From the NCBI RefSeq assembly GCF_001424345.1, contig NZ_LMPF01000022.1, positions 54,122 through 118,121 of the forward strand: a DNA stretch of 64,000 nt, written 5' to 3'. This document shows positions 32,270 through 62,832 of the stretch, in pieces. The position numbers were made by a program, and so were the translations under genes. The stretch comes from Burkholderia sp. Leaf177 (lineage in GTDB: Bacteria; Pseudomonadota; Gammaproteobacteria; Burkholderiales; Burkholderiaceae). How positions within the stretch are numbered: the first letter of the stretch is position 1; each line of letters opens with the position of its first letter. Below the pieces are notes generated by a model that saw only the letters and a list, made by a program, of their open reading frames with translations, was not told the origin of the DNA and ran no database searches.

Positions 32270-32342
32270 TCAGAGCTAATGATCTGCTTTAATTTGCGGG
32301 TTTTCCCGAATTCGTCGGCTGATGAGCAGACGGGGAGGGCGC

Positions 32343-38500: not shown

Positions 38501-39688
38501 ATCCGTCAGGATCGAATCAGCATAGTTACCGGCGCGCGCAAACTGGATGGCGTTATCGTCAATGTCTGTAGCGAACATCTGGATCAACGGTCCATTGGAA
38601 GCCGCCGCCACGAGCTCGCCGAGCACCATTCCCAACGAATACACTTCCTCACCGGTCGAGCACCCCGCTACCCAAACCCGCAGACGATCATCAGCCGATT
38701 TTTCGGCAAGGATCTTGGGGAAGAGATTGTGCTCAAGCGCGTCGAAAGCAGCGCGATCTCGAAAAAAGTTGGTCACGCCGATAAGCATGTCCTTTAACAG
38801 CGCCGCCGTTTCGCCAGGATTTTGGTCAATGTAAGTTTTATATGCGGGCAGGTCAGTTAAGGAATTGACATGCAACCGCCGCTCAATCCGACGCAGAACC
38901 GTTGCACGTTTATAGTGATGAAAGTCGTGGCCCGTGCTGGTCCGAAGCTGCTCCAGCACTTGACGCAACGTGTGTTCATCTTCTGTCTTCGAGTAATTAG
39001 GCGCGAACCGCTGATCTGGGCCTTCATTCTCGATCGGCGGCAACTTCATCGCATGCGAATTTTCCTTAAGCTCGACAAGCTTTGCCGGAATACGGGCGAC
39101 AGGAAGAATAATATCGACGGAACCCGTAGCAATAGCGCTTAGCGGCATTTCGCTGTATTCCGCGTCCTCCGGTGCTTGTACAATAGTAATGCCGGCCTGC
39201 TCCTTGATGCGTGCGATGCCAAGAGCGCCATCGCTCCCGGTTCCCGACAGAATGATGCTAATCGCTCGTGACCCGTGGGACTCGGCAAGGCTACGGAAGA
39301 GAAGGTCAATCGCGACTGGACGCCCACGCGGACGATCATCTGCAGAAGCAACGAGAAATTCTCCGTCAATGGTCAAGTCACTTGCCGGCGAGATCAAATA
39401 CACGTGATTTGCCTGCACTCGCGTGCGAGCAACAACCTGCAGCACCGGCATAGCAGTCACACGCTGGAGAACCTCATCCGCTTTGCTGTCGTGTGTCGGC
39501 GAAAGATGGATAACTAATACGAAAGCGATGCCTGCATCCGCCGGCATGTGCTCAAAAAAACTCAGCAACGCTCCAAAACCTCCGGCTGACGCACCTATAC
39601 CTACTACGGGAAAATCGGGGTCTGGCTTCGCCAAAATTACAGAGCCTGGCTCGGGGGGATCAAGTGTCAGCGAAGACTGGGAGGTCAT
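35537..39688 (-). CDS. Hybrid CheB-CheR-PAS-histidine kinase-response regulator
   Basis: A 1383-residue cytoplasmic signalling protein. Order of domains: CheB methylesterase (about 25-215; GIGASAGGFGALL with Ser, HLSPTHDSKADEVL with His, LSGTGSDGALG with Asp), CheR methyltransferase (about 245-500; VAGCSTGEEVYSLGM), a PAS region, a long heptad coiled coil (about 655-745; SNEELQAINEELWSATEELE), two more PAS domains, HisKA with SHELKNPLNL near residue 1022, HATPase (LLRNALKFT, VSDTGQGI, GGLGIGLSLV), and a C-terminal receiver (LLVDDSTEAL, phospho-acceptor in LLLSDIGMPTMDGYEF). Start ATG 39688 gives MTSQSS; GTG 39739 and ATG 39727 are alternatives. No chemoreceptor, cheA or cheW gene is near. Known relatives act in biofilm or stress signalling rather than classical chemotaxis. 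Confidence 0.92.
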   Translation of the reverse strand: MTSQSSLTLDPPEPGSVILAKPDPDFPVVGIGASAGGFGALLSFFEHMPADAGIAFVLVIHLSPTHDSKADEVLQRVTAMPVLQVVARTRVQANHVYLISPASDLTIDGEFLVASADDRPRGRPVAIDLLFRSLAESHGSRAISIILSGTGSDGALGIARIKEQAGITIVQAPEDAEYSEMPLSAIATGSVDIILPVARIPAKLVELKENSHAMKLPPIENEGPDQRFAPNYSKTEDEHTLRQVLEQLRTSTGHDFHHYKRATVLRRIERRLHVNSLTDLPAYKTYIDQNPGETAALLKDMLIGVTNFFRDRAAFDALEHNLFPKILAEKSADDRLRVWVAGCSTGEEVYSLGMVLGELVAAASNGPLIQMFATDIDDNAIQFARAGNYADSILTDVTQARVDKFFNHRESRYVANTELREKILFAKHNVLRDPPFSQIDLVSCRNLLIYLDRSVQREVLETFHFALRPNGYLFLGSSESAEIANDLFTPIDKKHRIFKAKALAIRQRPTPRLRSFGPFAFENNATLPNVPSASSDPFSAIHLRVIGEHAAPSLLVDRDAKILHTSEAVGRFLSHVAGEPTQNALILINPQLRLELRTALFQAQQEGKTVTTPQVRFSYREEWTFVTMSARPYRDTKSALDVILVSFDEQTEPKFEELSVLSATENATVSNLESELQQARDQLQSTLEHANVSTEELKASNEELQAINEELWSATEELETSKEELQSVNEELLTVNGELQAKVVETAKAVDDLGNLIASSGVATIFVDRSMRIKRFTAPAVGLFNLIDSDIGRPLLDLTHRLNYPELATDAAAAFETLMVIEREVSTKAGGWYLARLLPYRTSDDHIDGAVLTLIDITARRAAEQDVRSAEDRLKLAAMTTDDYAIIVQSLDGMIVSWNKGAARVFGYEEAEVVGRPIDLIFLPGDVTDGVPSSERRHAALHGRAEDERWHVRRDGTKIYCAGVSTLLKANNFEGYAKILRDLTERKIADSKQLRLLTSEREVRAQAEASLRIKDEFFAVLSHELKNPLNLIHVKAELLARSPEVRSIAVVQDAADAIQRSVVGQAKIIDDLLDLSRVRTGKLALQLGPVDVSACVQSVIEASLRDALESDIKLNVVGIANPVIIHADGVRFEQMLWNLLRNALKFTSRGGQINVELSLLPEAVCIEVSDTGQGISADFLPYIFDMFSQADGGGRRNNGGLGIGLSLVKQLAEMHGGQVDGTSAGVGKGASFRLVLPTNSKGSISAFVTTVLDTRILQGLRILLVDDSTEALEAFRALLELEGAHICAPSSAIEGLAEAAVQDFDLLLSDIGMPTMDGYEFIAALRKSERNAAVPAIALTGFGREQDAAKALQAGFNAHIGKPVPLPALIKAIGLLLSNKARR

Positions 39689-41215
39689 CAAAATTTTCCC
39701 GCGGAACAAATGACGAATTTGCTTCATACGAACATTCACGGCACGTAGAGCAAAAACAGGTATCGCGACTCACGAAGATCGCGTCAATTAAAGCCTTTAG
39801 ACAAAAGGGTGCACATTCTCGCAGCCAGCATAGTCTGTTGGCGGGTCTTAAGGAACAGGAAGATGCATTCATTCGATGCGGCTCAAGTTAATCGGTCATT
39901 CATTCTTACTTAAGCCGCGCATGTTGGATTTAATATGGCGTTATCGGTCATTGTGATGCCATCCAAACTCAATCAAAGTCTGAGTGCGCGACCCAAGCAC
40001 TATGTCCGCGCTCACTGTCGAGTGTCGACTATCCTTGCCGGCCCTCGACCGTTCGGTGATAGTGAACAACGAGCTTCAAGTGGCTAACGTCCTTTGCACT
40101 CGCATTCCAGGAGTATTGAAGGTTTAAGAGAATTCGCTGCGCTCGCAACGGCTTATCGGTCAGCTCACCGAATTCGGCGACTCGGTCATACGCGAGTTTT
40201 GAGAATGGTGTTCGTGTGCGCATAAGACCAGCGGGGATTGTGGTCAACAGGTTTGGGTACCTCTATCCGTTGATTTTCTGGCTTTTCTAATCCGACGATG
40301 GGTAGAAAAAGCGCAATATGAAAAACGTCATGGTCTAGTGAAAACGAGCATAGCTAACGATGATCTGATTTGCCTGATTCTACGCCGCCCTCCGGTTAGT
40401 CGACCGCGAACGATGCAATTTTGCTTGACGAATAGGCGAACATCTCTTTTAAATTAAAGTTACTAAGTCGCATTGATCATCGAGAATTACCGATATGGAA
40501 AGTCGGGTAGCTGCAACGGCGTTTCGAGGCAATAGATCGAGCGCAGCTGTCGGACGTAGGCGGAACAAAATAGCTACTAGGCTCAGAAATAAAAAAATGT
40601 TTTAATGGAAAATCGATTTTCAGCAAGTAGCATGGATTGAAAAAATCAACAATGTTATTTTTGATGTTATAAGCTTAAAAAGCTTTTTAACCGACGAACA
40701 CCTACTCGAGCTAGGATGAAGATAAGTATTTGCTTATAAAACTATAATTACAACACTAACCACCGAATAAGCGCTAAAGTGCTTCTGGGGTGCGTATAGA
40801 GGAAGGCTAATTCATTGCTCGCTGACAAATCTTGGCCAAATCATGGCTATGATGTCTGGCCGCTTTTACGCGTCGATAGCAAATTTTCGTAAAGTACGGA
40901 TACGGCATGTCTACGATGGGTATAAGTTTAGTCCAAAGTTAGAAAACAAATTGGTAGATTAGATATAAAACTGTTTCTATAAACAATGAACATTTAAAAG
41001 TACTTACATGTTGGTTATATGGGGCCGTCCGTTCCTTAAGAGATTAAATGGTTACAAAGTATTTAAAATCTGACTTATTGGTGTTTCACTTATTATTCTT
41101 GTTTTTGGATTGATTTTTCAGTTTGTTGAGGTTTAGCGCTAATAGCTAAGATTCAATCTAGCTATCAAAAGGTGAAAGTCCACATAAGATTTCTGATAAA
41201 GAGGTCGACGAAACT
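39689..41215. other. 1.5-kb AT-rich gene-free region
   Basis: No convincing gene. Composition turns markedly AT-rich at about 40440-41200, unlike both flanks. It contains a perfect 14-bp palindrome TAAAAAGCTTTTTA at 40676-40689. Likely foreign or eroded DNA, and a natural target for H-NS binding. Confidence 0.5.
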
Positions 41216-45882: not shown

Positions 45883-47418
45883 ATGAATAAGGCAGAAGCT
45901 AAGGGCTGGCTGAGAAGTCGCTACGGGTCAACGGAGTTGTACGCTCAGACTTCAGCCACAACGATCCCAACGTCCGAATTGCTCGACGTTCTCTCGCACA
46001 TTCCCTCGATAGTGTGTGGCTCGGAGGCCGACAAGCAGGCGCGTCAAGCTTTCCTCTTTGACTTCTGTGCACGTCAGGACAGGTGGCGGATACCGACGCC
46101 GTTCACCGTGAAACTGGAGCATCAGGCCAGCTTCCGCAGATGTGTCTCGATGTTTAGTGGATATGAATCCAAGTCCCCTATGAACTCGCCTGTCTTCGTC
46201 CTTCATGCGCTGCGCGACGAACTTTACGAGAAGTTCGCTGGTGTGCCTTTGCCCATGACCAGTGAGCGACTAGCGCTACTCGATGAACTTTCACTCCGCA
46301 TAGGTGCCATCGTTCGGCCTCATACCTCTATAAAAGCTGCGGAATTCGATTCTGAGATTGCGGTCGTCACGAGCATACTTGACGGATTACGCGACGGGAC
46401 ACTTCGCACGATTTTTCGCACGTCGCTACCTTACGCGATGTCCGCACAAACTATCGAACTCAGGACTATTCATCGCGGAATTCAGCTTACAGGCTCGCTC
46501 ATTCCAAAAATTTCTCAGCCTTCCAGCGTTTTCAATTCGGGCGGCACCGAAACGGTCGCTGCAGAGATGAACACCTCCAGGTGGCCAAGCGGGGCAACCT
46601 CTGTGGATCTCCACTTTGCCGCCCTTGTCGACCCGAGCGTTGAGGCACCCGCGCTTCGGATTCCATCTGCTGGCTCCATCCTAGGAGAATCGTGGCCAAA
46701 CGGCTTCAATGTGGTTTTCGACGTGATCTACGAAGTCTGTTGGCACGTCCGCTATCAGCAGGGCGAGGCCTTTGGATGGATTCCCTCACCTAGCGATATC
46801 GGCCAGCTTGAAAGTCGGATGTCCTGCGGTTCAACAAAGGATTTCGGGCTCATCTGGCGCAACAATCCCGCAAGCTTAATGAAGGCGTTCGTACCGCCGT
46901 CCGAGCCGTTGGTCGTCGAAGGTGAGATGCGCGCGATGCCGTGGCACCGCAAGTGCCGTGAACTTGCGCAACAACACGCGCGCGTCGGAGATACACGAGA
47001 AGCTCTCTTTTGGCTGAACGTCGGCACGGAGTCGCTGATTAACGATAGGATGAGAACCGAAGTCGCGAAATATGGCTCACCGATCGGCCTTGATAGCTTA
47101 GACAGCAGCGACGCATACTGGGACGACGCCCGACAATTGGTTGAGACAATCAACAAGGCAGTCGCTGATCAGATTGATTGGCCTACCGATACTCGAAAGC
47201 CAAGTCGCTTCAAGCAACTCAAGTACGTCTGCCGCAAGATCAAGGGGGCACCGTCGTTATCGAGTGTTCAGTCAAGCTACTCGAAGGTATCGAAGGACCG
47301 CAACGCGCTTTTCCACGGCGAGAACGAATCACCCGTATCCGTAGAAGCATTTCGCGAGGCGACTGCTGGCTACGACTGGCTCGATCAGCATTTCTTTCCT
47401 GACGCTGAAAGGCATTGA
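45883..47418 (+). CDS. HEPN-domain protein, possible Apea-like antiphage RNase
   Basis: A 511-residue protein. The last 150 residues are helical and include KVSKDRNALFHGEN near residue 473: the RNxxxH form of the HEPN catalytic motif, used by many toxin and abortive-infection RNases. The preceding 360 residues are a mixed alpha/beta region with no recognised domain, comparable in layout to ApeA-type proteins (unknown N-domain plus HEPN). It lies 310 bases upstream of the large nuclease-STAND gene on the same strand. An RNase that kills or stalls infected cells is a reasonable inference. No Shine-Dalgarno is clear. Confidence 0.65.
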   Translation: MNKAEAKGWLRSRYGSTELYAQTSATTIPTSELLDVLSHIPSIVCGSEADKQARQAFLFDFCARQDRWRIPTPFTVKLEHQASFRRCVSMFSGYESKSPMNSPVFVLHALRDELYEKFAGVPLPMTSERLALLDELSLRIGAIVRPHTSIKAAEFDSEIAVVTSILDGLRDGTLRTIFRTSLPYAMSAQTIELRTIHRGIQLTGSLIPKISQPSSVFNSGGTETVAAEMNTSRWPSGATSVDLHFAALVDPSVEAPALRIPSAGSILGESWPNGFNVVFDVIYEVCWHVRYQQGEAFGWIPSPSDIGQLESRMSCGSTKDFGLIWRNNPASLMKAFVPPSEPLVVEGEMRAMPWHRKCRELAQQHARVGDTREALFWLNVGTESLINDRMRTEVAKYGSPIGLDSLDSSDAYWDDARQLVETINKAVADQIDWPTDTRKPSRFKQLKYVCRKIKGAPSLSSVQSSYSKVSKDRNALFHGENESPVSVEAFREATAGYDWLDQHFFPDAERH

Positions 47419-47727: not shown

Positions 47728-50700
47728 ATGGCGCAATCACCCGAACTCGCCGGGGGCGAGGGCTTTACCTTTGAGGGCGACGCGGCTGCGTTCTATCTCA
47801 CCGCGTTGCTAGCCGAGGCGTATGCACCGGGCATTAACGATCGAACTGTTGTCCGAGTGTCGGTTCAGCAGCGCGATTTCGGCGAACCCCTCGACGATGT
47901 GATTGTTGATTTTGAGGACTCCACGAAGGGTCCCGCTCGGCTAAGCCTCCAAGTGAAGCGATCGCTCACTGTCAGTAAGGCGAACACGAACACTGACTTT
48001 CGCGACATCATTCGCGACAGTTGGGCCACGCTCAAAAAGTCTGATTTCCGCATCAATACCGACCGCTACGGGGCAGCGGTGGGTACGGTTACCCCTGTCA
48101 AAGAACGGGCACTAAAGACGCTTTGTGATTGGGCACGCGAAAGCCTAACGGCTGAGCACTTTGAAGCACGTTTTGTGCCGGGTGGCAGCGCCGGCGTCGA
48201 CATTAAAGCGGTAAACGAAGATGTCGTTTTTCTGCTGGGAGAAGCGAAAGGGGCGCCGTGCACACGGGAAGAAGTGCATCAGTTCCTTGCACACTTCGTA
48301 CTCGTCCAATTTGACTTCCTTCGAGAAGGCGCTACCGATCCCCCTGACGCAATCAATCGCATCCGAGATTGCCTAGTGCCCGACGATGCGGGCAAAGCTC
48401 CTCTTGTCTGGTCGCGCGTCGTTCAACTCGCCCGTGCATCGGCAGGCAAGTCAGGTCAGTTTGATCGTGCACGGCTTGTACGCTCGATTGCATCTGTCGC
48501 GCGTTTGCTCGGCGCGACCTCATTGCGCCGCGACCTCGAGAAGTTGATGGAGGTCGCGAAGAGCTACGCGAGCCTCATTCCGGACGATGTTGGCGGAACA
48601 AAGCTTGATCGAATCTCGCTACTTGAGGATTTGGACGCAAAGCTCGCTGCAGCCCGAGTTGTCCAGATCCGCGGTCTTCCTGGCAGCGGCAAATCAGTAT
48701 TGGTGAAGCGAGCAGTACTCCGCGCGCTCGAGCGCGGGCCGATCCTCTTCCTCAAAGCTGAACAGCTCGAAGGCACCAACTGGATCAGCTACGCGGCCTC
48801 GCATGGTCTTTCGGATGTGCCATTAGAGCTACTTCTTGTGGACGTTGGAGCCGCCGGCATTCCCATTTTCTTCATTGATGCGATCGATCGCATTGAGAAA
48901 GAACACCAGGCAATCATCCTCGACGTCATTCGCACCATCGTAGAGTCGCCGCTGCTCGATCACTGGCGCATCGTCGTCTCTCTTCGGGATACCGGCATAG
49001 AGGTGTTGCGCAATTGGTTGGGCGACTTCCTTGATGAGTTGAAAGTCGAGACGCTCGGCGTTGGTCAACTAAGTGGCGAAGAAGCCGATACGCTTGCAAT
49101 CGCCAAGCCACATCTGAGGCCACTTCTGTTTGGGTCGGCCCAAGTGCAAGAGATCGTCCGACGCCCATTTTTTGCGAAGGTACTGAATCAAAGTTACATC
49201 GCTGCCCCGAGCGAGCCGACTTTCGCCCCACAATCGGAAGCCGATCTAATCGGGAATTGGTGGCGGCGAGGCGGTTACAACGAGACCGGGCAAAGCGCGA
49301 TTGAACGCCAACGCGCGCTGCTTGATTTGGCACGCGTTCGCGCCCGCCAGCTTAGCCAGCCGATCCGCTTTAGTCAGCTCACCTCGGTCGCACACATCGA
49401 CGACCTTCGATCGGACGGCATACTTCAGAATGCTCGCGAAGGTATCTCGGTTCGATTTGCGCACGATATCTTCTTTGAATGGGCCTTCTTCCATGTCCTG
49501 GCCGATCGCGGAGCACAATGGATGGAAGAGATCAGGGCGTGCGGCGAACCGCCGGCGGTCGCACGCGTAGTCGAACTCGTCTCGCAGTGGGAGTACGCCC
49601 ACGGAACAGACTGGCGGGCGTTCCTCACGCAAACTGAAGGTTCGGATCTGAGGTCACAATGGCTGCGAGCGTGGTTGGTCGGGCCGCTCGGCACTGGGAG
49701 GTTCGAAGTTGACGAAGACCAGTTCGCGACTGCCGTGCTTGCCGACGACTTCCGACTTTTCAGGAAAACGCTCGTCTGGTTTCAGGCTGAGAAGACCTCG
49801 TCGAATGCGAGCATCCTCGCTGGTACGCTCCCACTAGAGCAACGTCAACGGGTCGCTGATTTCCTCGGTTGGCCTTCGGACTTCGCCGCCTGGCGCCGCC
49901 TTATCGACTTTATCCTCCGGCGCATTTCAGACATTCCGCAGCGACTCTATCCCGAGATCGTCGCGATTTTTGAGGTTTGGCAGAACGCCCTAGCTGGCAT
50001 TAGCAACCCGACATCTCGCGCGCTACTACAACAATGTGCTGCCTGGCTCGCCGCTATCGATGCAATCAGCACCGCTGACGGGCCTGATGAAAACTCTGCA
50101 TACTGGAACAGGGTTCCCAGCTTGGGCGATTTCGGAAAATCGCTTGGCCGGCTCCTCTTGAGATCGTCCAAGGCCGAGCCGACCCTTGCGGCTGACTATT
50201 TGCAACGGATCACCAATTCTGAGCGCATCCGCGACGACGACTTTCATGACATCATCGCCTACTCACCCATCCTAGCCCAATCGCTTCCTCAGTCGGTTGT
50301 CGACCTATCGTTGATGTTCCTGCGAAAGGAGTTACCTGACGACGAAGTCGCCCGCGAAGAGAGCGAGCTTCACGACGCAGCCGAGTGGCGCAAATCTGTT
50401 TTGGCAAAACCGGAAGCCGAGCGCTCGCGTCAAGAGCAAAGGGCACTTTCGGTTGGGTTTTCCCTGCGAACCATCGGCGATTTCAGCTATCACGACTGGG
50501 ATAGACTCTCGATTCACGACGACTACCGAAGTTTCTCGCCACCTTCGCCGCTTCGAGAGCCCTTTCACTCACTATTCCAAGCATCGCCCGGCGAGGCACT
50601 GCGACTGCTTCGGGAACTCTGCAATCATGCGATGGCCGCATGGCTGCAGTTGCATCGTCACTCGCGTGAACGTGGCGGCAGCCCTATACCGCTCGAACTT

Positions 50701-53112
50701 ACGTTCCCCTGGGGTACCCAAAGATTCTGGGGCACCGACCGGGAGTACCTTTGGTTTCGGTCGACTAGGGCGCCGAAGGCCATCGGCTGCGGGTTTATGG
50801 CGCTAGAGGAATGGTGCTTCGCCGAGCTTGTACGCGATCGGTCCGTTGACGAGCTGATACAGCAAATAGTCGAGGGGAACGACTGCATCGCCATCCTAGG
50901 TATCGCTGCGATGGTCACGCTCCACTCTGAGACGGTGTCAGAGGCCACATTGCCGCTAATCACCTCGCAACGCCTATTAGCGGCAGACCACAACCGAATG
51001 GTGCAGGACCTCTCGCCGACCGCGAGCCTAATCGGGTTCACGGGGCGGACCGACGAGCCGCACGTTGTGGCAATTCAGTCAGCAAATACCCGGCCAGTCC
51101 GTAAAGCACAGCTTAGCTGGATGGTGCCAAGGTTCATCTTCACGACCGAGCCACTTCACGACCGAGCCCGCGAAGCGATCCTCAATTTCAAGAATAATTT
51201 GCCCTACCAGTACGAAGAGCATCGCAACATTTCGGAGGCTCGGGAGCATCTCACAGCTCAGGCTCTCGGGTATGCCGAGTTGGTGGAACCGGGGAACTAT
51301 CAGGCCTACCGCACGAACGAGCATTCAGACGAGATTGCGATCGTGCACGTCAGCCCTTCCGCCGCTAAGCCTGAATACGTCGCCCGAGCTGAGGAGGCCT
51401 CTAGGCACCTTAGAGAGGTGGCTCTCTGGACGTGGGCGTCCAAATACCTCGAAGAAAAGACGCTGGGCGAAACCTTCACAGTCGAGGCAGCCATCGCGTT
51501 GGCAAGCGAAACTGACGCCGGCAACTTGTTCGAGCATTCGGACAACGAGAACGACGACGGGAGGTTGGGTATGCGTCGAGGTGCGGTCGCCGCTACAGCC
51601 GCCGCCGTACTCAACTTCCGAGAAAGGCTCACCGAAGTAGACCTTGAGTGGGCTCGTGACGTTCTAGCGCGTGCAATCCGTCTGCCAGAAAAGCCCGGAT
51701 TAATGTGGTCGCCTGGCTCCATTATCCCGTGGCACCAAGCGATCTACGTGGCGCGTGGCCTCGCAGCAGATCTTCGCGAAGGCACATCGGTGGAAGGCAC
51801 GGATCACGACCTCCTTGGGTTGATTGCGCATCCGCTTGAAATCGTCTCGTTAGCCGCGCTCGAAGAAGCCTGCAAACTTTGGTCCAAGGACTCGAAGCTG
51901 ACCTGGGCGGCACTAATTTTGGCATTTTCGCTCTGCCACGTTTTACCGCGGCCGCAGGATCAGCTTCGTCAACACGACGAAGCTCTCCATTCAGTAAGCG
52001 AAGCGCAGGGGGCGATTGGCGCGGCACTTGCGTTCTATGAGAATGCCGATGGATGGTCGACCCTTCCATTGCCACCTCCAGCCTGGGTGAAGGTCGAACC
52101 CAGCAAGGACCGACAATGGCATCAGAGCCATGACGACTACAACGAAGATGATGCGGCGGATGCAGATGAGGTTTGGAATGAACCGGATGTTTTCTGGCAC
52201 TCAAAGCAAGCCGCGGAAATTCTAAAGCGCGTCCCGTTCGATGAGATCCTGAGTAGTAGCGCGAAGAATGCTCTGCTCGATTTCCTCGCCAGAGTCCTCG
52301 ACTGGACTAATCAGAAGAATGCGCCTCCCTGGGTAAAACCAGGACGTCGAGATCGTTCTTCGACACGTGTCTTTGAATGGACCCGCGCGCTAGGCTCTAG
52401 CCTCGGACGAGTGGCTGGGCTGCTCCCGCTCAGCGACTATCAGATCCGCTTCCTTCACCCGATATTGGGGCTCGAGGGCGAAAATTGCTGGGCTCTCCTC
52501 TCACCATTCGCGAGCACCTACGTCTGCACCTACGTGTACGATGCCCGGGTCGTTCCAGCTGATGCAGTCAAGATGCTCGATCTCTGTCTTGGTCGACTTC
52601 TCGACGACCCAACGTTCGATCGCGACGCCTACCGAAGCGGAGAATTCTCAGGCTTCGATCAGCCGGAACTTGTTCGCACATTGATGTTTGTCTCAGTCGA
52701 ACGCGCGGATTTAGCCGCTCGCTATGTCAATGGAGACTGGTCGGAAATTAGTCGCATCCTGTCCCTGATTGACCGATTCATTCGCGCCGGTGGATGGGCT
52801 GCCTCCGTGATGGCCCCGTTCTTGACGTTGTGTGAGCGAGCAAAGACCAACTACCCCGCCGAAGTCTTCGCGGACCAGATGCTCGCGATCATCAGCGACG
52901 GGCCAGACAGCCTGAAGGGGTGGCATGGAACATTTATTCCTGCGCGTATCGCTGAACTTGTGCAGCATTTCGCACATCGCGACGCACCGATGAAGCTTGG
53001 TCTTGCTCAGAAGTTTCTGCGAATTCTCGACATGTTGGTTGACATGGGTGACCGGCGAAGTGCCGCGCTTCAACTTGGAGAGGCCTTCCGCGAGATTCGT
53101 TTGGCTTCCTAG
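47728..53112 (+). CDS. Giant nuclease-STAND ATPase, candidate Avs/NLR-like antiphage sensor
   Basis: A 1794-residue protein. Residues 1 to about 200 resemble a Cap4/DUF4297-type dsDNA nuclease: GFTFEGDAAAFYLTALL, then Asp61 in VIVDFEDS and the QVK of LSLQVKRS (Gln75, Lys77), the D...QxK form of the PD-(D/E)XK core. A P-loop ATPase follows: Walker A RGLPGSGKSVLVKR near 316, Walker B IPIFFIDAIDRIE near 381, then WRIVVSLRDTG (sensor-1 like). From about 600 to the end is a long helical, TPR-like region without motif. This three-part plan matches Avs-type STAND sensors, in which a C-terminal sensor detects a phage protein and activates the nuclease. It sits with a HEPN gene, a recombinase module and a Druantia-like operon. 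No Shine-Dalgarno before ATG 47728. Confidence 0.8.
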   Translation: MAQSPELAGGEGFTFEGDAAAFYLTALLAEAYAPGINDRTVVRVSVQQRDFGEPLDDVIVDFEDSTKGPARLSLQVKRSLTVSKANTNTDFRDIIRDSWATLKKSDFRINTDRYGAAVGTVTPVKERALKTLCDWARESLTAEHFEARFVPGGSAGVDIKAVNEDVVFLLGEAKGAPCTREEVHQFLAHFVLVQFDFLREGATDPPDAINRIRDCLVPDDAGKAPLVWSRVVQLARASAGKSGQFDRARLVRSIASVARLLGATSLRRDLEKLMEVAKSYASLIPDDVGGTKLDRISLLEDLDAKLAAARVVQIRGLPGSGKSVLVKRAVLRALERGPILFLKAEQLEGTNWISYAASHGLSDVPLELLLVDVGAAGIPIFFIDAIDRIEKEHQAIILDVIRTIVESPLLDHWRIVVSLRDTGIEVLRNWLGDFLDELKVETLGVGQLSGEEADTLAIAKPHLRPLLFGSAQVQEIVRRPFFAKVLNQSYIAAPSEPTFAPQSEADLIGNWWRRGGYNETGQSAIERQRALLDLARVRARQLSQPIRFSQLTSVAHIDDLRSDGILQNAREGISVRFAHDIFFEWAFFHVLADRGAQWMEEIRACGEPPAVARVVELVSQWEYAHGTDWRAFLTQTEGSDLRSQWLRAWLVGPLGTGRFEVDEDQFATAVLADDFRLFRKTLVWFQAEKTSSNASILAGTLPLEQRQRVADFLGWPSDFAAWRRLIDFILRRISDIPQRLYPEIVAIFEVWQNALAGISNPTSRALLQQCAAWLAAIDAISTADGPDENSAYWNRVPSLGDFGKSLGRLLLRSSKAEPTLAADYLQRITNSERIRDDDFHDIIAYSPILAQSLPQSVVDLSLMFLRKELPDDEVAREESELHDAAEWRKSVLAKPEAERSRQEQRALSVGFSLRTIGDFSYHDWDRLSIHDDYRSFSPPSPLREPFHSLFQASPGEALRLLRELCNHAMAAWLQLHRHSRERGGSPIPLELTFPWGTQRFWGTDREYLWFRSTRAPKAIGCGFMALEEWCFAELVRDRSVDELIQQIVEGNDCIAILGIAAMVTLHSETVSEATLPLITSQRLLAADHNRMVQDLSPTASLIGFTGRTDEPHVVAIQSANTRPVRKAQLSWMVPRFIFTTEPLHDRAREAILNFKNNLPYQYEEHRNISEAREHLTAQALGYAELVEPGNYQAYRTNEHSDEIAIVHVSPSAAKPEYVARAEEASRHLREVALWTWASKYLEEKTLGETFTVEAAIALASETDAGNLFEHSDNENDDGRLGMRRGAVAATAAAVLNFRERLTEVDLEWARDVLARAIRLPEKPGLMWSPGSIIPWHQAIYVARGLAADLREGTSVEGTDHDLLGLIAHPLEIVSLAALEEACKLWSKDSKLTWAALILAFSLCHVLPRPQDQLRQHDEALHSVSEAQGAIGAALAFYENADGWSTLPLPPPAWVKVEPSKDRQWHQSHDDYNEDDAADADEVWNEPDVFWHSKQAAEILKRVPFDEILSSSAKNALLDFLARVLDWTNQKNAPPWVKPGRRDRSSTRVFEWTRALGSSLGRVAGLLPLSDYQIRFLHPILGLEGENCWALLSPFASTYVCTYVYDARVVPADAVKMLDLCLGRLLDDPTFDRDAYRSGEFSGFDQPELVRTLMFVSVERADLAARYVNGDWSEISRILSLIDRFIRAGGWAASVMAPFLTLCERAKTNYPAEVFADQMLAIISDGPDSLKGWHGTFIPARIAELVQHFAHRDAPMKLGLAQKFLRILDMLVDMGDRRSAALQLGEAFREIRLAS

Positions 53113-53762: not shown

Positions 53763-54308
53763 ATGACCCAGACACCGCCCGCAGCCCCGCCCGATAAGGA
53801 CGCACCTGTCGATCCGGTGACCGCTCGCATCGTCTTGCGCCTGGACGACGCAATTTCGGCGTTCCGTGCAGGGGAGGGGACGGGTCTGCACGCCTTAGAT
53901 TCGGCCAGTCGCCTCATGGGCGAGCTGACTGACGATGCAAGTACGACCGCGGCGGCTCGGCGGGGTGAGCGACCCCGCGTTCCTCGACGGCCCGACCGCG
54001 TAGAGCTGGCAATCCTTACGGCGCTCGCCGATACGTACGGCAACGAGATCCTGACCAACGCATCGCTCGGCTATGCACTGCGACTAGTCGCGCAACATGG
54101 AGGCGTGGCGCTAGTGCAGCGCGTCTTATGGGGCGAGTCCGCGTCCGATGTGCAACTGGCCACGATGCTCGGTGCGGCCCGCGCGGCATTCACCCAGATC
54201 GCCTTCGCGTTCAGTGACGATCTCCTCGCAGAAGCGAACGGCGTGCTGTCAGGATTCCGACCGCAGCCACCGGGCGGCCCAAAGTCGACCCGAGGCAAGC
54301 GTGGCTGA
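53763..54308 (+). CDS. Hypothetical helical protein, first gene of recombinase module 2
   Basis: A 181-residue protein with a Pro-rich N-terminus (TQTPPAAPPDKDAPVDPV) and a helical body (VELAILTALADTYGNEILTN, LATMLGAARAAFTQIAFAFS). It overlaps the recombinase gene by eight bases (GTGGCTGA), implying coupled translation and a joint role, perhaps as a directionality or accessory factor. No counterpart precedes recombinase 1. No HTH is evident. Confidence 0.65.
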   Translation: MTQTPPAAPPDKDAPVDPVTARIVLRLDDAISAFRAGEGTGLHALDSASRLMGELTDDASTTAAARRGERPRVPRRPDRVELAILTALADTYGNEILTNASLGYALRLVAQHGGVALVQRVLWGESASDVQLATMLGAARAAFTQIAFAFSDDLLAEANGVLSGFRPQPPGGPKSTRGKRG

Positions 54309-56211
54309 AAATCTCACGCTCACCTACGGCTACACCGCGAAGGATCTCGCGGCGGTGCGCGCGTATGTGCAACGGGTCACGCCGGCGATCATCGCGCGTA
54401 CTTACTACGACGTCGATGAGGATAGCTTCGCGGCCACGCCCTCGGCGATGGACCGGCACCTTCGCACCATGCTTGATGGCCTGGTGAAGGTGGCGATCGA
54501 GCACGGGTCGGCCGCGCTTGCGGAACATCTGCGCTCGTCGATCAAGAAACACGGGCAGCCAAAGCTCACCACGGTGACGTTTCGGATGGTCACTGAAGCA
54601 GCGGCACTGGCGACAGCTTCCCCCGCGGCGAACCACGCGATCGGACGATGGTTTCGCCCGCGCATCGCATCGCGCTTGAAAGGGGAGGGGATCACAACGA
54701 TTGGCGAATTGATCGCGTTCTGCAATCGGCGCGGCGGCAGCTGGTGGCGCTCGGTGCCGCGCATCGGAGCCGGGCGCGCGGCCGTCGTCGTGGCTTGGCT
54801 GCGCCGGCACGAATCGCACATCCAACTGCGCGTCGACGCCGACGTGGACACGCGCGATCCGCTGGTCGCCGATGAAGTCGTCCAGGTGTGGCCGGCCGAA
54901 CCGGTTCTGACTGATGGGGATGGGGTAGGGCAGTCGGAAAAACCTCAGAAGAGGTTGTCGGATCGGCTCACCCTAGCGCCGCTCGAACGGATGGCCGTGC
55001 CGCACACGCTGTCGGGCGCCGAAGGTGAAAACCGCTCGGTTGCCTTCTGTTATATCCAGGCGCGCCACGACCTTGAAGCCGTGCGCGCATACCTGAATAA
55101 ATACCGCGATCAGCCGAAAACGCTGCGGGCCTACACCAAGGAAGTCGAGCGCTTTCTCTTGTGGTCAGTGGTCGTGCGGGGCAAGGCGCTGAGCTCGCTG
55201 GTGGTTAATGACTGCGAGGCGTACAAGGATTTCTTGAAAAGTCCGGATCCGCGTTTTGTTGGCGAACGGTTCAGCCGCAACTCGCCACGTTGGCGCCCAT
55301 TCGCTTCTGACAATCTGTCGCCCGAGTCGCAGCGGTATGCCGTGCGCGCGCTGCGTGCGGCCTTCACTTGGCTGGTGGACGTCCGCTACCTCGCGGGCAA
55401 TCCCTGGAAAGCGGTCAACGATCCGAAGATCGTTCAGCGTGAGACGGCGATGCAAATCCATCGTGCGTTGCCGGCGGACCTGTGGCGGCGCCTTCGCAAT
55501 GAGCTCGATACACGCTCCGACATGGACGGCGATACCAAGCTTGCGGTGCAGTGGCGCGTGGTTCGCGCAGCTCTTTTGCTCATGGGTGACTCGGGCCTGC
55601 GCCGCGAAGAAGCCGCGGATGCGCAGCGCGGCAAATTGCGGGTGTCGATCTACGGTACGCTCGAACGGCCGGTGTGGGAGCTGACTGTCGTCGGCAAGCG
55701 CAACAAGGAGCGGACGGTGCCGGTGAGCGTCTCGACGCTCGAGGCGCTCAAAGCGCACTGGTCGGATAGGGGGCGCGACTTCATGGCGCGGACGGATCTG
55801 CTCAATCCGTCCGCGCCGTTGTTGTCGCCGGTCGCCATCCCCCAGACGCCCGCCTCACGCGTCAAACATCATCAGCGCAGCACCGAAGGCGAGCAGGGCT
55901 ATTCGGCCGACGGAATTAACCGCCTGATCTCACGCATGTTGACGATCATCGTCGAGACCATGGATGATCTGAGTTTGGATGAGCGCGTGATCCTGGGCTC
56001 CGTGAATGCCCACGCGATGCGTCACACCTTTGGTACCCAGTCGGTCGCCGACGAGGTGCCGGTCGATGTCGTCCAAAAAGTGTTGGGTCACGCGTCGCTG
56101 CAAACGACGTCGATCTACGTGCAGGCCGAAAAGAAGCGCGTGCTCGAGGAGGTCGCCGGCTACTACGCTCGGCGCTCGGAAGTGCGCGCTCCATCCGGAC
56201 GAAACGAGTAA
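54301..56211 (+). CDS. Tyrosine recombinase with DUF3701-like N-terminal domain (module 2)
   Basis: A 636-residue paralogue of the recombinase at 32343, visibly alike over its whole length. GTG 54301 (VAENLTLTYGYTAKDLAAV) is chosen over the longer ORF start at 54148 because the alignment with the paralogue begins here and GAGG precedes it. Shared blocks include RRGGSWWRSVPRIGAGRA and LRAYTKEVERFLLWSVVVRGKA. Catalytic residues: Arg in GDSGLRREEAADAQ, HAMRHTFG, LGHASLQTTS and Tyr in SIYV. An HU gene follows 215 bases downstream. It stands between two defence gene groups. Confidence 0.92.
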   Translation: MAENLTLTYGYTAKDLAAVRAYVQRVTPAIIARTYYDVDEDSFAATPSAMDRHLRTMLDGLVKVAIEHGSAALAEHLRSSIKKHGQPKLTTVTFRMVTEAAALATASPAANHAIGRWFRPRIASRLKGEGITTIGELIAFCNRRGGSWWRSVPRIGAGRAAVVVAWLRRHESHIQLRVDADVDTRDPLVADEVVQVWPAEPVLTDGDGVGQSEKPQKRLSDRLTLAPLERMAVPHTLSGAEGENRSVAFCYIQARHDLEAVRAYLNKYRDQPKTLRAYTKEVERFLLWSVVVRGKALSSLVVNDCEAYKDFLKSPDPRFVGERFSRNSPRWRPFASDNLSPESQRYAVRALRAAFTWLVDVRYLAGNPWKAVNDPKIVQRETAMQIHRALPADLWRRLRNELDTRSDMDGDTKLAVQWRVVRAALLLMGDSGLRREEAADAQRGKLRVSIYGTLERPVWELTVVGKRNKERTVPVSVSTLEALKAHWSDRGRDFMARTDLLNPSAPLLSPVAIPQTPASRVKHHQRSTEGEQGYSADGINRLISRMLTIIVETMDDLSLDERVILGSVNAHAMRHTFGTQSVADEVPVDVVQKVLGHASLQTTSIYVQAEKKRVLEEVAGYYARRSEVRAPSGRNE

Positions 56212-56946: not shown

Positions 56947-57360
56947 TTAGAGGGGGCGTCCCTCTAAAAAATTTTCCACCTTAATGGATACCACGTCATA
57001 TCCGGTCTTGGTCAGCTCGCATTCCCACAAAATTAAGCATTCCCATCCCATCGCTTCGAGCGCAGTGACGGCTCTTTGGTCGCGAATTTGGTTTTTACTG
57101 ACCTTACGAGACCAATAGAGCGTGTTACTTTTTGGGATCCTTGCGCCTCGGCGGCAAGTGTGACTGTGCCAAAAGCAGCCATGCACGAAGATCACTTTTC
57201 GGCGGCCCGGGAAGACAATGTCCGGCGATCCAGGCAGGTCTTTACGATGCAGCCGAAACCGGTAGCCTCGCGCGTGCAAAAGACGCCGCACGAACAATTC
57301 CGGGGCGGTGTCCGTGGAACGAACCGCCTGCATGATCTTTCGGCGTGACTCGTCGGTCAT
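56947..57360 (-). CDS. vsr: Very short patch repair endonuclease Vsr
   Basis: A 137-residue mismatch endonuclease, full length. MTDESRRKIMQAVRSTDTAPE is the family start (ATG 57360, another ATG just before). Asp and Glu/His catalytic features are present: LPGSPDIVFPGRRKVIFVHGCFWH with the metal-binding Asp, and FWHSHTC ... C zinc-site residues. Vsr nicks beside T:G mismatches left by deamination of 5-methylcytosine, so a cytosine methylase is expected, but none is in the window. A hairpin (TTAGAGGG / CCCTCTAA, 56947-56967) overlaps its stop. It is divergent from the Druantia-like operon. Confidence 0.95.
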   Translation of the reverse strand: MTDESRRKIMQAVRSTDTAPELFVRRLLHARGYRFRLHRKDLPGSPDIVFPGRRKVIFVHGCFWHSHTCRRGARIPKSNTLYWSRKVSKNQIRDQRAVTALEAMGWECLILWECELTKTGYDVVSIKVENFLEGRPL

Positions 57361-58150
57361 CATCTTTGTAAAGGGGCTGCTGATCGAAGAGGTTTTTCGA
57401 TTCGGTGACGCGGCTAGTTGTCCGGCCAAACGCAAAAGTCAACAAGGCCATAAATTGCGCCAATGTTGCAAGGTATCGAATAACTGTAAACCCGAGGGGG
57501 CAACTACTCGACAGTCGCCGGGCGATTGGACCAAGAAGTCAAAATGCAAGGGTGCCGTTTGTTGTACGCCCGGGTGATTTTTTTGGCGCAACCGTAGATT
57601 GCCGCCTCACGGGCATCGCCTAGATCGACCATCTTGACCAAGGGCGCTCATAAGCCATTGCGGCTGCGAGCTTCTATCGGTTCGGCGGCGTCCAAGCCTC
57701 GATTTTGCAAAGTGCTTACCGCCTGAATAAATGAGCCTCTTGGCCGTCGAGGCGATCCTCACGCGCTGAGCTTATTTTAAGTTTCCGGCATGTCTGCCGA
57801 TAACTGGAATGGAGGTAGTCTTACGCTTCGTTTGAACATACGTGTCTCGTTGGTCGATCGGGATCCCAATATCCCGTTTCGTCCCTATTCGACATGGACG
57901 CATCGACAGCCCGCCGGCTTAGTCTTACACTAAATTCTGCGGAAGAAAATCGAGGAAAGTGACCGAGCTGGCTTTCGAGACGCGCGCGCGTGAGACGTGC
58001 GCGGGATTTGGACTAAACGTTTTATCTGGAAATGGATTGCCAGGTTGCATCGCAATTCACGAGAGTATTTGGGGCGATCGATGCCGGACTGAGAGCGGCG
58101 TCAGATGACGGAGTTAAAAGACAGCAGGACAACCGTGTGCTCTAAAAATA
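57361..58150. other. Intergenic region between vsr and the helicase operon
   Basis: About 790 bases, no gene recognised. It should carry promoters for both divergent units. Confidence 0.45.
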
Positions 58151-60685
58151 ATGACTTGGCAGCCACCAATCACGTTCGACGCGTGGGAAAAGCATTTAGT
58201 TGAGCGGTTTTTAAAGGTCGATGACAGCGGCGATTCGACTGACATTCGTTCCTTCGAAGTAACGGCGACGACTCTGGCGGATGCGCTAGGAGCGCCCCCG
58301 AATTCTGAAGCCGCTGTCGTTGACGCATTTCAAAAACTGCTTCACCGCGATCCACTTCTCGTAACATCGCTCTCGACGCAATCGCAGCGGGTTTCGAATG
58401 CAAACGTACCCTGTTGCTTCGTTTATCTTGCCGCGACGCTTTTCGTCGACAGCATGCTCGACGGCGAAGATCTCGGAGTAGGCGCATTTCGCGAAAAACT
58501 CGCTAAATGGCTCGACATCGACAATAGTTTTCCTCAACTCAAAGGTATTGCGAGCATGTGGGAGATGTTGCGCGACTGGATAAATCTCAGGTTGAGTCTC
58601 GGTGAGCCCTATAGACGGGTGGTCCTCCCCGATCCGGGCGCATGGACTCACATAGGGTATACGCGGCGGTTATCATTTCCAAATCGATCGGATGCTCGGG
58701 CGCTTAGACAGTTCATTGCAGACCACCCGACAGTTCGAGACAGGCCGCTCGCGACAATAAACTTATTCGACAATTATCGACTCAACAAGCATATATCGTG
58801 GGGATTGAACCGAGCGTTCGAGGACTTTAGGGACGCCTATTTCAAACAGCGGCGTGCGCTCGCCGACCATCGTTTTTGGCGGTTGATGTGCCGAGTATCT
58901 AACAACGGCGATGCTAAACAAGGGGTGGCGGTTGAAATTGACATGTTATTCGAGGAGGACGGAAGTCGTCTCTTCGTCAGCCCGGATCAAGGCGTTAAAG
59001 ATGGGCGAGCTTATCAAAATCTAACTGACGCTTTAGTCGGCGAAAAGGCAGCTCAGAGCATAAATCTCTCGACGGGCGTTAAAAAGGGAATCCTGTTTTT
59101 TAGAGCTTCGGGCCTTGGTCGTTGGTCTATCGAAACGGACCCTCGCGAATCGTATACCGGTATCTATGTCGCCTTAGCCTTGAGCCATGAAGCGAAGATC
59201 GGTACTCGATTGGGGCCGCTACGCTCAGAGAAGAAATGGCTTGTCACCTCCGACCCAATTTCGGTAAGGAAGGCCGTAGACGCGCTCATTTCAGCTCGCC
59301 TGCTTACCTCCTCAAACGACCACGTCTTTCGAACATCGGCATCTGACGGAATCCGGGTTGGAGGCGCTTGGCTCGGTAGACCTCGCTTCCTTCCCCGGCT
59401 CGACTCCGACACGGAACGCTTCGCTGTTACGTCGAATGATCGCGAATCGGAACTACGTGTATCTGCAGACGGGCAATTTTCGTCCGAAGGAAGCTTGAAC
59501 GGATCGTTCACCATTCGGCCGGCACTTGTACACGGTGAGTCTCAGCCCCAGTGGAGTCTTCGACTCGCCTTCACATCAAAAGCAACTCCACATGCAAAAG
59601 CGGATGGAGCTCGATATCGGCTTGATCTTTTGAAGGATTGGCCCTCTGAGTCCAAGGCGTTGCGCTCGATCGGAATCAATCATCCGCTCACTTGGGAAGA
59701 AGGTGAGATCGAGTGTGGGGATTTGATCGAAGCTTTGTATGCCGACGGCGCTAGTGGATGGGAAGAGGCGGCTCTGATCCAGCTACTAGTGCGAGCCTGC
59801 GACAGCCTCGACGGCTGGTCTTTGTTACGAATTTTGCACGATGCGGGGCTTGTCGAGCCTCGCTTGCGAGGCGGATGGCGAGGCCGGAATTGGACTCTGA
59901 TTGCACCGCATCTTCTTGTCGTTCCCTCGGATGCCGGAACCTTAATTGTTATCGAAGGCGCCGTGTGTGAAAGCCTCGTGGATAGCTTTCGCTCAATTGT
60001 TGATGCGGAGGGCGGGACATGCTTCCGACGCTTAGGCGTGGGACCATGGTCCCCACCCACGTTCGGCGCGGTTGATGTTTCGGCCGAGAGGATAGCGGAA
60101 CGCCTGGACTGGCCGATCGTCACGCGGCCCGCGTTTGCCTCGGCTTATCCCCTGGGATTTGAAAAGACGGAACGTCTGGCTTTAGCGTACGAGCCTGCCG
60201 ATTTCTGGGATTGGAGAGCGAAGCGATTTCTAAGTCGACCCATTGAACCTGGAACAACAACACTGTCTCGTCTCGTGCACGTTTCCCGACGAGACCACGA
60301 CTTGTTCAAGGTGGCGAGTGACAACCGGACTGTTCTATATCTATCTCGTACCGCGGCGATAGTGGCGGCGCATGCGGCGGCAGGCATTCCTCTATTTCGT
60401 CAACGAGGCGAAGTGCTTGTTCGTATTGCAAATGACGGAGGCCTTCCTGACGCACTTGCGAACGATTTAAGACGTCGACAGATGCGGACTGCCGGTATCG
60501 TAGAGGGCGTCTACGCTTACCCGTCAGCAAACGAAGATGTGCAACTATTAAGGCGGCTGCTTCCGAGGTGTATTGAAAGCATCGAAACGGTTAGTGAGAT
60601 ATCGGCAACGCGATTACTTGGGGCGTCTCGACGTTCTGAGGGGCGGACTCGGCCTGTTTGGCGCAATGGAAAAATAATTTTATGA
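58151..60685 (+). CDS. Large unknown protein, first gene of Druantia-like operon (DruF-like position)
   Basis: An 844-residue cytoplasmic protein with no motif I recognise: no P-loop, no clear nuclease core, no transmembrane helix. The N-terminus (FDAWEKHLVERFLKVDDSGDS) is acidic and helical; a middle portion is beta-rich (SLNGSFTIRPALVHGESQ). Its stop overlaps the next start as ATGA, and the third gene is a giant helicase. In type II Druantia, as I recall it, two large proteins of unknown function, DruF and DruG, precede the helicase DruE; this gene fits the DruF position. Assignment is by gene order and size only. No Shine-Dalgarno is apparent before ATG 58151. Confidence 0.6.
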   Translation: MTWQPPITFDAWEKHLVERFLKVDDSGDSTDIRSFEVTATTLADALGAPPNSEAAVVDAFQKLLHRDPLLVTSLSTQSQRVSNANVPCCFVYLAATLFVDSMLDGEDLGVGAFREKLAKWLDIDNSFPQLKGIASMWEMLRDWINLRLSLGEPYRRVVLPDPGAWTHIGYTRRLSFPNRSDARALRQFIADHPTVRDRPLATINLFDNYRLNKHISWGLNRAFEDFRDAYFKQRRALADHRFWRLMCRVSNNGDAKQGVAVEIDMLFEEDGSRLFVSPDQGVKDGRAYQNLTDALVGEKAAQSINLSTGVKKGILFFRASGLGRWSIETDPRESYTGIYVALALSHEAKIGTRLGPLRSEKKWLVTSDPISVRKAVDALISARLLTSSNDHVFRTSASDGIRVGGAWLGRPRFLPRLDSDTERFAVTSNDRESELRVSADGQFSSEGSLNGSFTIRPALVHGESQPQWSLRLAFTSKATPHAKADGARYRLDLLKDWPSESKALRSIGINHPLTWEEGEIECGDLIEALYADGASGWEEAALIQLLVRACDSLDGWSLLRILHDAGLVEPRLRGGWRGRNWTLIAPHLLVVPSDAGTLIVIEGAVCESLVDSFRSIVDAEGGTCFRRLGVGPWSPPTFGAVDVSAERIAERLDWPIVTRPAFASAYPLGFEKTERLALAYEPADFWDWRAKRFLSRPIEPGTTTLSRLVHVSRRDHDLFKVASDNRTVLYLSRTAAIVAAHAAAGIPLFRQRGEVLVRIANDGGLPDALANDLRRRQMRTAGIVEGVYAYPSANEDVQLLRRLLPRCIESIETVSEISATRLLGASRRSEGRTRPVWRNGKIIL

Positions 60686-62832
60686 TCGACAATAGGCTGA
60701 ACCGGCCCACGGACTCATCGTTACAGGTCTACGCCGGTCGGTGCACAAATCGACACGATATCATCGCGAATATCGCGATTACCGTCCGCCGCACAGATTC
60801 CGTATGGACCGCAATCGACAATCCGCAAAAGCTTTTTCCGAAATCGGGAGAGGTCGAGATACGTGGTGCCGAAACGAAATCAATTCGCTTGCATGATTGG
60901 GTCGCACTACAAGTTTCAAAGATAGGACTAGGTGGCCGCGCGCAATGGAGGGGCATTCATCATTGGCGCCTTTTCCCCATTGTTGACCTGTCACATCTAT
61001 CGTCCTTAGACGACGTTCGCCGGGTTTTAGTAGTTGACGGACTGCCTATTTCTGGAAACACAGGGTCCTGGATCGTTCGCACCCGAGAAGACGCGGTCAC
61101 GAAGGTAGAGCTGGTTCGCGCCGGAAACGTCATGCGGCTTGCGGCAAACACAGTCGCCTTAACCGTATTCGCATTTGATGCGGAGTGCCAGATTCAAATG
61201 CCCGACGTTGGGACAGAGGTGTCGCTGTACGGCATCGCCCCGGATGCGCCTTCGATCGCAGTCTACGACTGGACTCCGGACAATGGACATGTGTCACGCA
61301 TAGTCCAAGCGCTATCGGGAGCGAACGACGTACGTATTGACGAAATAATCAAGTGGCTCGAACTGTATTCCGATAGGCGAAACGGTCGCTTATCGGTGAA
61401 CGGGTCAGATTTGGCGGAAGCTCATGAAGCGCTACGGTCCGGAGAGCTCGCAAAGCAATTGTTAGCAAACAAACAGTTGCTCAGAGCTTACGCTAACGCG
61501 CTGCGAGCGACGCCTTCCGTTGCGTTTCTGATCGACGAAGAGATAGCTGCGATTGCCGACGAAGAACGTTCGTTAATTCGCGCACGCGCGGAGAAAGAGC
61601 TTGCCGCCGAGCTCACCAACGCGCGCAAAGCGCGACTCGTAGATCTAGGAAAAGAGTTGGCAACATATGAAGAAGAAGCGAAGGCGGCTCTTGAAGCCAA
61701 GCACGAAGCGGCGATCGGAGAAGTCGAAAAAGAAATTGCCGAAATGCGAGCCGCGAAAGAGAAGCTTATCGACAAAGATTTGCGAGCGGTTAAGAAATCC
61801 TTAGGCCAAGACATTGAAGCGATGTCACAGCAAAGTTCTCTTCTTAAAGAGGGTATTGATCGGCTTACGCTCGAAGAAAGGAACATTGAGGAACAGCTCA
61901 GGGCACTAACGGATCTGCACGCTATAGCATCGACCAGATTGCAGGAAGCGTTGATGGCGGAAGGCGCGATAAAGGCATTAACGAAAGTGGCGAAGCCAAC
62001 GGGATACGTTACGGCGAACCTTCCCCACCGTGCAAATCCAGTAGCAGGCTCGCAAATACGCGATGTCATTGACGCTTGCGTGCTCTTGACGGACGCGGGA
62101 AAAACTCTCATGGCTCACTTTGTGGCGCTGATCATGGCTGGAGATGTCCCAATTTTGACTGGTCCAGAGGCCAAAGATTTCATCCGTATAGCGGAAGCGC
62201 TGATTTCTTCGGGTAGGTCGGCAAGGTTGGTCGCTGACCCAACAATGATCTGTTTTGAAGATCTATGGACGCGCGCTGGATTACATGTGTCAACGACACT
62301 TGGTCAGGCGCTGGAGATGTCATCCGGAGAGAATCCGGTCACCGTATTGGCGGTCATTGAAAACGCGGAAGCATCCGGCGCGCGATTTTGGTACCCGGCT
62401 CTTGCGGATAACGCGCGCGGAGGCAAGTTGCCTCGACATTTTTTCGTCTGCATTACTGTCGGAGACAGCGCGTGCGAGGAAGCCAAAGTGATTGGTGACG
62501 AAGGCGTGCAGCTGGATATTCGGAAAGCTATAGTTCCGAATGCCGCCGCGATTTCGCCAGCGTTATTGGGACCGGCACTGTTTCGCGAGGTTCGGCCAGC
62601 GGAGTGGATAGTAGATATCGCCCCGGGGGTGGGTGCGATTGGCTCGATCACGGCACATCTCGATATCGACACTGCCATCCGAGCAGCTCGGGCCGCCCTA
62701 GAGGCAATGCGCCTAACTAGTTCAAGTGCCGCAGAGTCGGCCGCAAAATCCGTCGTAGCGTTGTTCGCACAAGAAGAGTCGCGCGGTAATTCATCGCTCT
62801 CGTTACTTTCCCGAGGAAATACAGGTGCTTGA
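60682..62832 (+). CDS. Coiled-coil protein with ATPase-like C-terminal region, second gene of Druantia-like operon (DruG-like position)
   Basis: A 716-residue protein; ATG 60682 overlaps the previous stop (ATGA). Residues 1 to about 190 are beta-rich (LHDWVALQVSKIGLGGRAQW, LPISGNTGSWIVRT). Residues about 285-415 form a strong coiled coil (EKELAAELTNARKARLVDLG and on). The C-terminal 280 residues have an AAA-like feel, VPILTGPEAKDFIRIAEAL standing where a P-loop would be, but the Gly-Lys-Ser/Thr is missing, so ATP hydrolysis is doubtful. It overlaps the helicase gene by eight bases. Its place matches DruG of type II Druantia; homology is not established here. Confidence 0.6.
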   Translation: MIDNRLNRPTDSSLQVYAGRCTNRHDIIANIAITVRRTDSVWTAIDNPQKLFPKSGEVEIRGAETKSIRLHDWVALQVSKIGLGGRAQWRGIHHWRLFPIVDLSHLSSLDDVRRVLVVDGLPISGNTGSWIVRTREDAVTKVELVRAGNVMRLAANTVALTVFAFDAECQIQMPDVGTEVSLYGIAPDAPSIAVYDWTPDNGHVSRIVQALSGANDVRIDEIIKWLELYSDRRNGRLSVNGSDLAEAHEALRSGELAKQLLANKQLLRAYANALRATPSVAFLIDEEIAAIADEERSLIRARAEKELAAELTNARKARLVDLGKELATYEEEAKAALEAKHEAAIGEVEKEIAEMRAAKEKLIDKDLRAVKKSLGQDIEAMSQQSSLLKEGIDRLTLEERNIEEQLRALTDLHAIASTRLQEALMAEGAIKALTKVAKPTGYVTANLPHRANPVAGSQIRDVIDACVLLTDAGKTLMAHFVALIMAGDVPILTGPEAKDFIRIAEALISSGRSARLVADPTMICFEDLWTRAGLHVSTTLGQALEMSSGENPVTVLAVIENAEASGARFWYPALADNARGGKLPRHFFVCITVGDSACEEAKVIGDEGVQLDIRKAIVPNAAAISPALLGPALFREVRPAEWIVDIAPGVGAIGSITAHLDIDTAIRAARAALEAMRLTSSSAAESAAKSVVALFAQEESRGNSSLSLLSRGNTGA

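Follow-up and report, generated by a model that had tools for sequence, protein, structure and literature searches.

A diverged Avs4-like STAND receptor with a predicted N-terminal nuclease, most likely of an unnamed sister clade of Avs4, in a mobile defence island of Burkholderia sp. Leaf177

The main finding of this study is that the window, the whole 64-kb stretch of Burkholderia sp. Leaf177 DNA that was analysed, encodes a 1794-aa protein in which a predicted PD-(D/E)xK nuclease, a STAND ATPase with a winged helix and a very long alpha-solenoid sensor follow one another, and that both the ATPase and the sensor of this protein are homologous to those of Avs4 (AVAST type 4; E. coli, PDB 8dgf). 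The protein most likely belongs to an unnamed deep sister clade of Avs4 and represents a new branch within an already known type of defence. We consider it probable that it works as a single-gene, NLR-like anti-phage receptor, in which sensing of a phage portal would lead to oligomerisation of the STAND domains and activation of the nuclease. The features discussed below are collected in Table 1.

Table 1. Features of the receptor gene, of its neighbourhood and of homologues with another N-terminus (window positions unless a locus is named).
Feature	Coordinates	Strand	Basis or remark
Whole gene, Avs4-like STAND receptor, 1794 aa	47728..53112	+	uninterrupted ORF, homologues, sole gene common to loci
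PD-(D/E)xK / Cap4-like nuclease domain (predicted), ~residues 1-215	47728..48372	+	motif, AF2 topology, fold matches, PADLOC
D56-D57, predicted metal-binding Asp pair	47893..47898	+	conservation
Q75-V76-K77, predicted catalytic QxK	47950..47958	+	conservation
STAND NTPase core, ~residues 291-500	48598..49227	+	profile matches, model, fold search
Walker A GLPGSGKS, residues 316-323	48673..48696	+	conservation
Walker B region, residues 380-384, ending at D384	48865..48879	+	conservation
Winged-helix region, ~residues 501-600	49228..49527	+	conservation, AF2 structure
HD motif H579-D580 in winged helix	49462-49467	+	conservation
Alpha-solenoid sensor, Avs4-type, residues 601-1794	49528..53109	+	Foldseek, hhalign, negative Avs2 control
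Druantia type II genes DruF, DruG, DruE	56947-62832 and on beyond (L086:947-6817)		Vsr just upstream, opposite strand
Alternative N-terminus of homologues	L014:9440-10080, L021:1470-2036, L016:9677-10246		

The open reading frame begins with ATG and runs uninterrupted, and that it is a genuine gene, as had been assumed, is confirmed by a scan of GTDB representative genomes, which yielded 36 loci in other genomes with relatives, mostly full length and with the same start; the N-terminal sequence MxQSPELAGGEGFT is common to most of them. Our alignment contains 26 full-length members sharing 40-87% identity with the 1794-aa protein. Their hosts include Burkholderiaceae (among them Caballeronia arationis, locus L002), Nitrosomonas, Halomonas, Aeromonas, Pseudomonas, Caulobacterales, Verrucomicrobiota and Campylobacterota, and the homologues from Pelagicoccus (Verrucomicrobiota) and Sulfuricurvum (Campylobacterota) are still 66% and 67% identical, respectively. 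The gene is patchily distributed and rare in its own genus, where only 2 of 37 genomes carry it at full length (G000 and G031) and one fragment occurs in G030. In a tree of the ATPase and sensor the hosts are freely intermixed, which indicates horizontal spread of the gene; some homologues are plasmid-borne and others lie on prophage-like contigs. The plasmid records of family members bear only the labels 'ATP-binding', 'NACHT domain-containing' or 'hypothetical'. No part of the protein attains the curated cut-off of a Pfam family, and the phage-genome collection searched holds no relative of it. A promoter scan found no sigma-70-like site and was uninformative. Several copies are split into several open frames (L025:10001-15389, L030:9971-15378 and L031:7295-10507); these are either pseudogene-like or sequencing frameshifts, and decay would be in keeping with a defence gene that is toxic and costly. 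One family member lies at the end of a phage tail module (L045:1049-13316) and another adjoins filamentous-phage-like Zot-type genes and an integrase (L044:2857-13364), suggesting that these two copies are phage- or prophage-borne.

A nuclease fold within the N-terminus, whose absence had been set beforehand as a refuting test of the original prediction, is predicted by the AF2 model of residues 1-640 (25 sequences, pLDDT 85). The modelled core has the order alpha-beta-beta-beta-alpha-beta (helix 14-29, strands 36-46, 58-63 and 69-80, helix 89-102, strand 113-121), with E16 in the first helix, D56-D57 opening the second strand and Q75-x-K77 within the third, so that in the model the conserved residues sit where a PD-(D/E)xK enzyme requires them. 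Across 25 sequences D56/D57, Q75 and K77 are invariant and E16 is nearly so. The D...QVK motif recognised earlier is present, as D-x(18)-QVK, but D61, which had been proposed for mutation, is not a conserved residue and gives way to E, H or L in remote members. When the model was compared with PDB folds, Avs4 ranked first and animal NLRs next, and Cap4 and the Lamassu nuclease LmuA were also significant; since Cap4 and LmuA share no STAND domain, we infer that these latter matches derive from the nuclease. The same ranking agrees with the earlier description of the protein as an Avs/NLR-like combination of a nuclease, a STAND ATPase and a long sensor. The PADLOC model DUF626_VIII, itself unexplained, matches the nuclease domain with an E-value of 2.9e-23, and searches of the domain against Pfam and PDB nucleases, including Cap4, gave no match at the sequence level. 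Weak PDB sequence matches of the domain are to designed or coiled helices and were dismissed as chance. The nuclease assignment is thus a prediction based on motif, predicted topology and fold matches. The same domain type also occurs, without a large sensor, in a 560-aa protein of the Agrobacterium tumefaciens Ach5 plasmid pAt (L084:3397-6683), which adjoins trypsin-like protease genes.

The nucleotide-binding motifs of the ATPase, pointed out in the original prediction, are well supported by conservation. In a comparison of 41 sequences, three of them Avs4 proteins, the Walker A positions G316, G319, G321 and K322 are invariant, and so are D384 in the Walker B segment FFIDAIDR, R420, and the pair H579 and D580 of the winged helix, an HD motif that can be compared with the MHD motif of NLRs. 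The family profile also matches PDB entries 9n00/9n01/9yix over the ATPase.

The C-terminal ~1200 residues are almost wholly helical in an AF2 model of residues 595-1794 (28 sequences, pLDDT 83) and form an alpha-solenoid, in keeping with the very long helical part noticed before. It had also been claimed that this region is unlike the described Avs types, and this claim is contradicted by our results, which reveal homology to the Avs4 sensor both by sequence profile and by fold over the whole length. In a Foldseek search against 350,542 PDB chains the top two matches are the Avs4 chains of 8dgf (E 1.2e-17 and 2.1e-17), with TMq 0.59 to this Avs4-portal complex over ~1264 alignment columns spanning the entire sensor, while the third is a generic HEAT-repeat exportin (E 1.6e-05), 12 orders of magnitude weaker. 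Profile comparisons point in the same direction. A search of PDB sequences with the family profile picks up 8dgf (E 2.2e-13), with the best segment in sensor residues 926-1324; the NCBIfam Avs4 model matches the protein in the ATPase (187-643) and the sensor (768-1168), and no protein surpasses its score with this model across 321 genomes of the class; and hhalign places residues 271-1398 in collinear alignment with three Avs4 proteins (E 9.3e-20), the sensor alone aligning with E 2e-9. As a control, one Avs2 protein aligned by hhalign gave no match in the sensor (0.1% probability) and only the P-loop with the whole protein. The sensor core shares W645, P716, S940, L949, D1087 and R1090 with Avs4, overall identity is ~19%, and for residues ~1400-1794 the alignment with Avs4 is by fold only, with no match at the sequence level. 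A plasmid-encoded protein of Hymenobacter (L076) reaches 382 bits with the Avs4 model and has the nuclease motif of the 1794-aa protein, and by these sequence comparisons it bridges Avs4 and our family. Taken together, the fold match, the profile matches and this bridge lead us to class the sensor as a diverged member of the Avs4 type. A new, unrelated sensor is ruled out by the profile and fold searches. The PADLOC, NCBIfam and PDB matches include no Avs1 or Avs3, and a search of a viral fold library returned generic helical matches only.

The protein is nevertheless not an Avs4 equivalog, because it scores 88.9 bits with NCBIfam NF041815 (Avs4) against a curated cut-off of 1500, its nuclease is of another subfamily, and the Avs4 proteins group separately with L076 and L077 in our tree, which was made by a quick method and has long branches. 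With Avs4 it shares the single-gene order of nuclease, STAND ATPase and sensor, the ATPase with Walker A/B motifs and winged helix, and a predicted N-terminal PD-(D/E)xK nuclease. It differs in length (1587 aa in Avs4), the profile alignment does not begin before residue 271, and the nuclease motif block is not alignable. The PD-(D/E)xK fold and the D...QxK motif are also found in the CBASS effector Cap4 and in LmuA, but in the 1794-aa protein the nuclease forms part of a STAND receptor, with neither a SAVED domain nor a Lamassu partner. Avs2 (AVAST type 2) has the same nuclease-STAND-solenoid architecture, but its sensor is not alignable by profile, as judged from the single Avs2 protein compared. 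The PADLOC candidate PDC-M54A, consisting of ~1620-aa proteins, can be aligned over nuclease and ATPase (residues 11-593), but the match is weak (E 1.2e-8) and PDC-M54A is uncharacterised, so that it offers no explanation on its own. Eukaryotic NLRs (NLRC4, NOD2, NLRP family) share the NOD/STAND core fold and the HD motif in the winged helix; their effectors and sensors are different and the relationship is remote.

No other gene family is common to more than 3 of the 36 homologous loci, and the protein therefore looks like a single-gene system, as far as comparison of the loci goes. Downstream of the gene lie a DUF3701 tyrosine recombinase, Vsr and then Druantia II DruF-DruG, with DruE just past the end of the window; no DruM methyltransferase was seen in the Druantia stretch examined. 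Homologues elsewhere directly adjoin Dsr2 (L005), Avs2 (L029), HmaC (L023) or the candidate PDC-M65B (L016), and integrases are among their neighbours. The defence context anticipated in the original prediction is borne out by these neighbours rather than replaced by consistent housekeeping surroundings; housekeeping genes are present as well, as expected at island edges. Two DUF3701-type tyrosine recombinases in the window (32322-34304 and 54148-56211) are 52% identical, share their orientation and are separated by ~22 kb; they may delimit modules of a single mobile island, and the former adjoins a DUF1016/YhcG nuclease-family gene (PDC-S02, 30698-31849). The upstream neighbour of the receptor gene (45883-47418) encodes a 511-aa protein of no known family, whose C-terminus contains an RNALFH (Rx4H) HEPN-like motif and matches CARF_HEPN weakly (E 0.013). 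It was ruled out as an obligate partner, as no homologue of it stands beside other family members. Further upstream, 35537-39739 (-) encodes a 1400-aa CheB-CheR-PAS-histidine kinase-receiver hybrid, an ordinary signalling protein.

How such a receptor might act can be proposed by analogy with Avs4. The 1794-aa protein would be inactive at rest. Upon infection, the helical sensor would bind a phage protein that is conserved and folded, the portal, as in Avs4, being the most likely candidate; the ligand of EcAvs4 is the phage portal, the passage for phage DNA during packaging. The ATP-bound STAND domains would then oligomerise, probably into tetramers as in Avs3/Avs4, and within the oligomer the N-terminal Cap4-type nuclease domains would meet and cut DNA, so that phage production would stop and the cell would probably be killed by abortive infection. 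The portal is the most likely ligand because the sensor shares the fold of Avs4 from end to end, and an Avs4-type trigger rather than a new one is the default expectation. It is possible, though clearly not the reading we favour, that the same architecture and nuclease effector are coupled to a sensor that has diverged to see another phage packaging or structural protein, which would make the protein a new AVAST type that responds to a new trigger. Such a shift of ligand is suggested by the ~19% identity and by the residues beyond ~1400 that align by fold alone, and the wide miss of the Avs4 cut-off and the somewhat lower conservation of the sensor within the family, as compared with the nuclease and the winged helix, are consistent with it. 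Against it stand the fold match across the whole sensor, with the Avs4-portal complex as clear best, and the shared sensor-core positions listed above; Avs proteins, moreover, reportedly recognise fold rather than sequence. If the portal is indeed the trigger, portal sensing by fold would survive ~80% sequence divergence. The finding probably extends Avs4-type recognition to a broad family in Pseudomonadota, Verrucomicrobiota and Campylobacterota that the curated Avs4 model leaves unnamed.

Two other explanations depart further from the proposed portal-sensing receptor. STAND ATPases have non-defence roles too, and the protein could in principle be a STAND regulator or nuclease serving host functions such as transcription, DNA repair or cell-death control; the patchy presence of the gene, its transfer across Pseudomonadota, Verrucomicrobiota and Campylobacterota at at least 66% identity, the adjoining defence systems and integrases and the copies on prophage-like contigs make this improbable. 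Still harder to sustain, and in our judgement very improbable, is a Cap4/CBASS-like effector switched on by a nucleotide signal. The nuclease domain is Cap4-like by fold, but a STAND ATPase and an Avs4-type solenoid occupy the place where a SAVED domain would be, and no gene accompanies the receptor gene across the loci, so that a partner cyclase is lacking. Identity as a Cap4/CBASS effector proper was ruled out, given neither a SAVED domain nor an adjacent CD-NTase/cyclase.

Another finding from this study is a natural exchange of the effector on a constant receptor. In homologues from Leptothrix (L014), a Burkholderiaceae MAG (L021) and Pseudomonas frederiksbergensis (L016), the ATPase and sensor are 68-79% identical to those of the 1794-aa protein, while an unrelated N-terminus of ~190 aa takes the place of the nuclease upstream of ~residue 269. 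This alternative N-terminus is conserved among the three, its junction is fixed, and it opens with an amphipathic-looking stretch, e.g. FFRVLSTIAGALLPKGKQLY. It has no match in Pfam, PADLOC or plasmids, and it is possibly an undescribed effector or membrane-acting domain. It seems unlikely that the family forms a separate AVAST type, in which the Avs4 fold would read a new phage ligand through the diverged ~1400-1794 region and the N-terminus of these three homologues would be an undescribed effector type. Effector swapping on a constant receptor is said to be a hallmark of Avs proteins, and a natural swap at a fixed junction provides a ready pair of proteins on which to ask whether phage specificity is set by the receptor half alone. 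L014 and L021 group together in the tree and L016 has an unresolved position nearby, so that either one or two swap events are possible.
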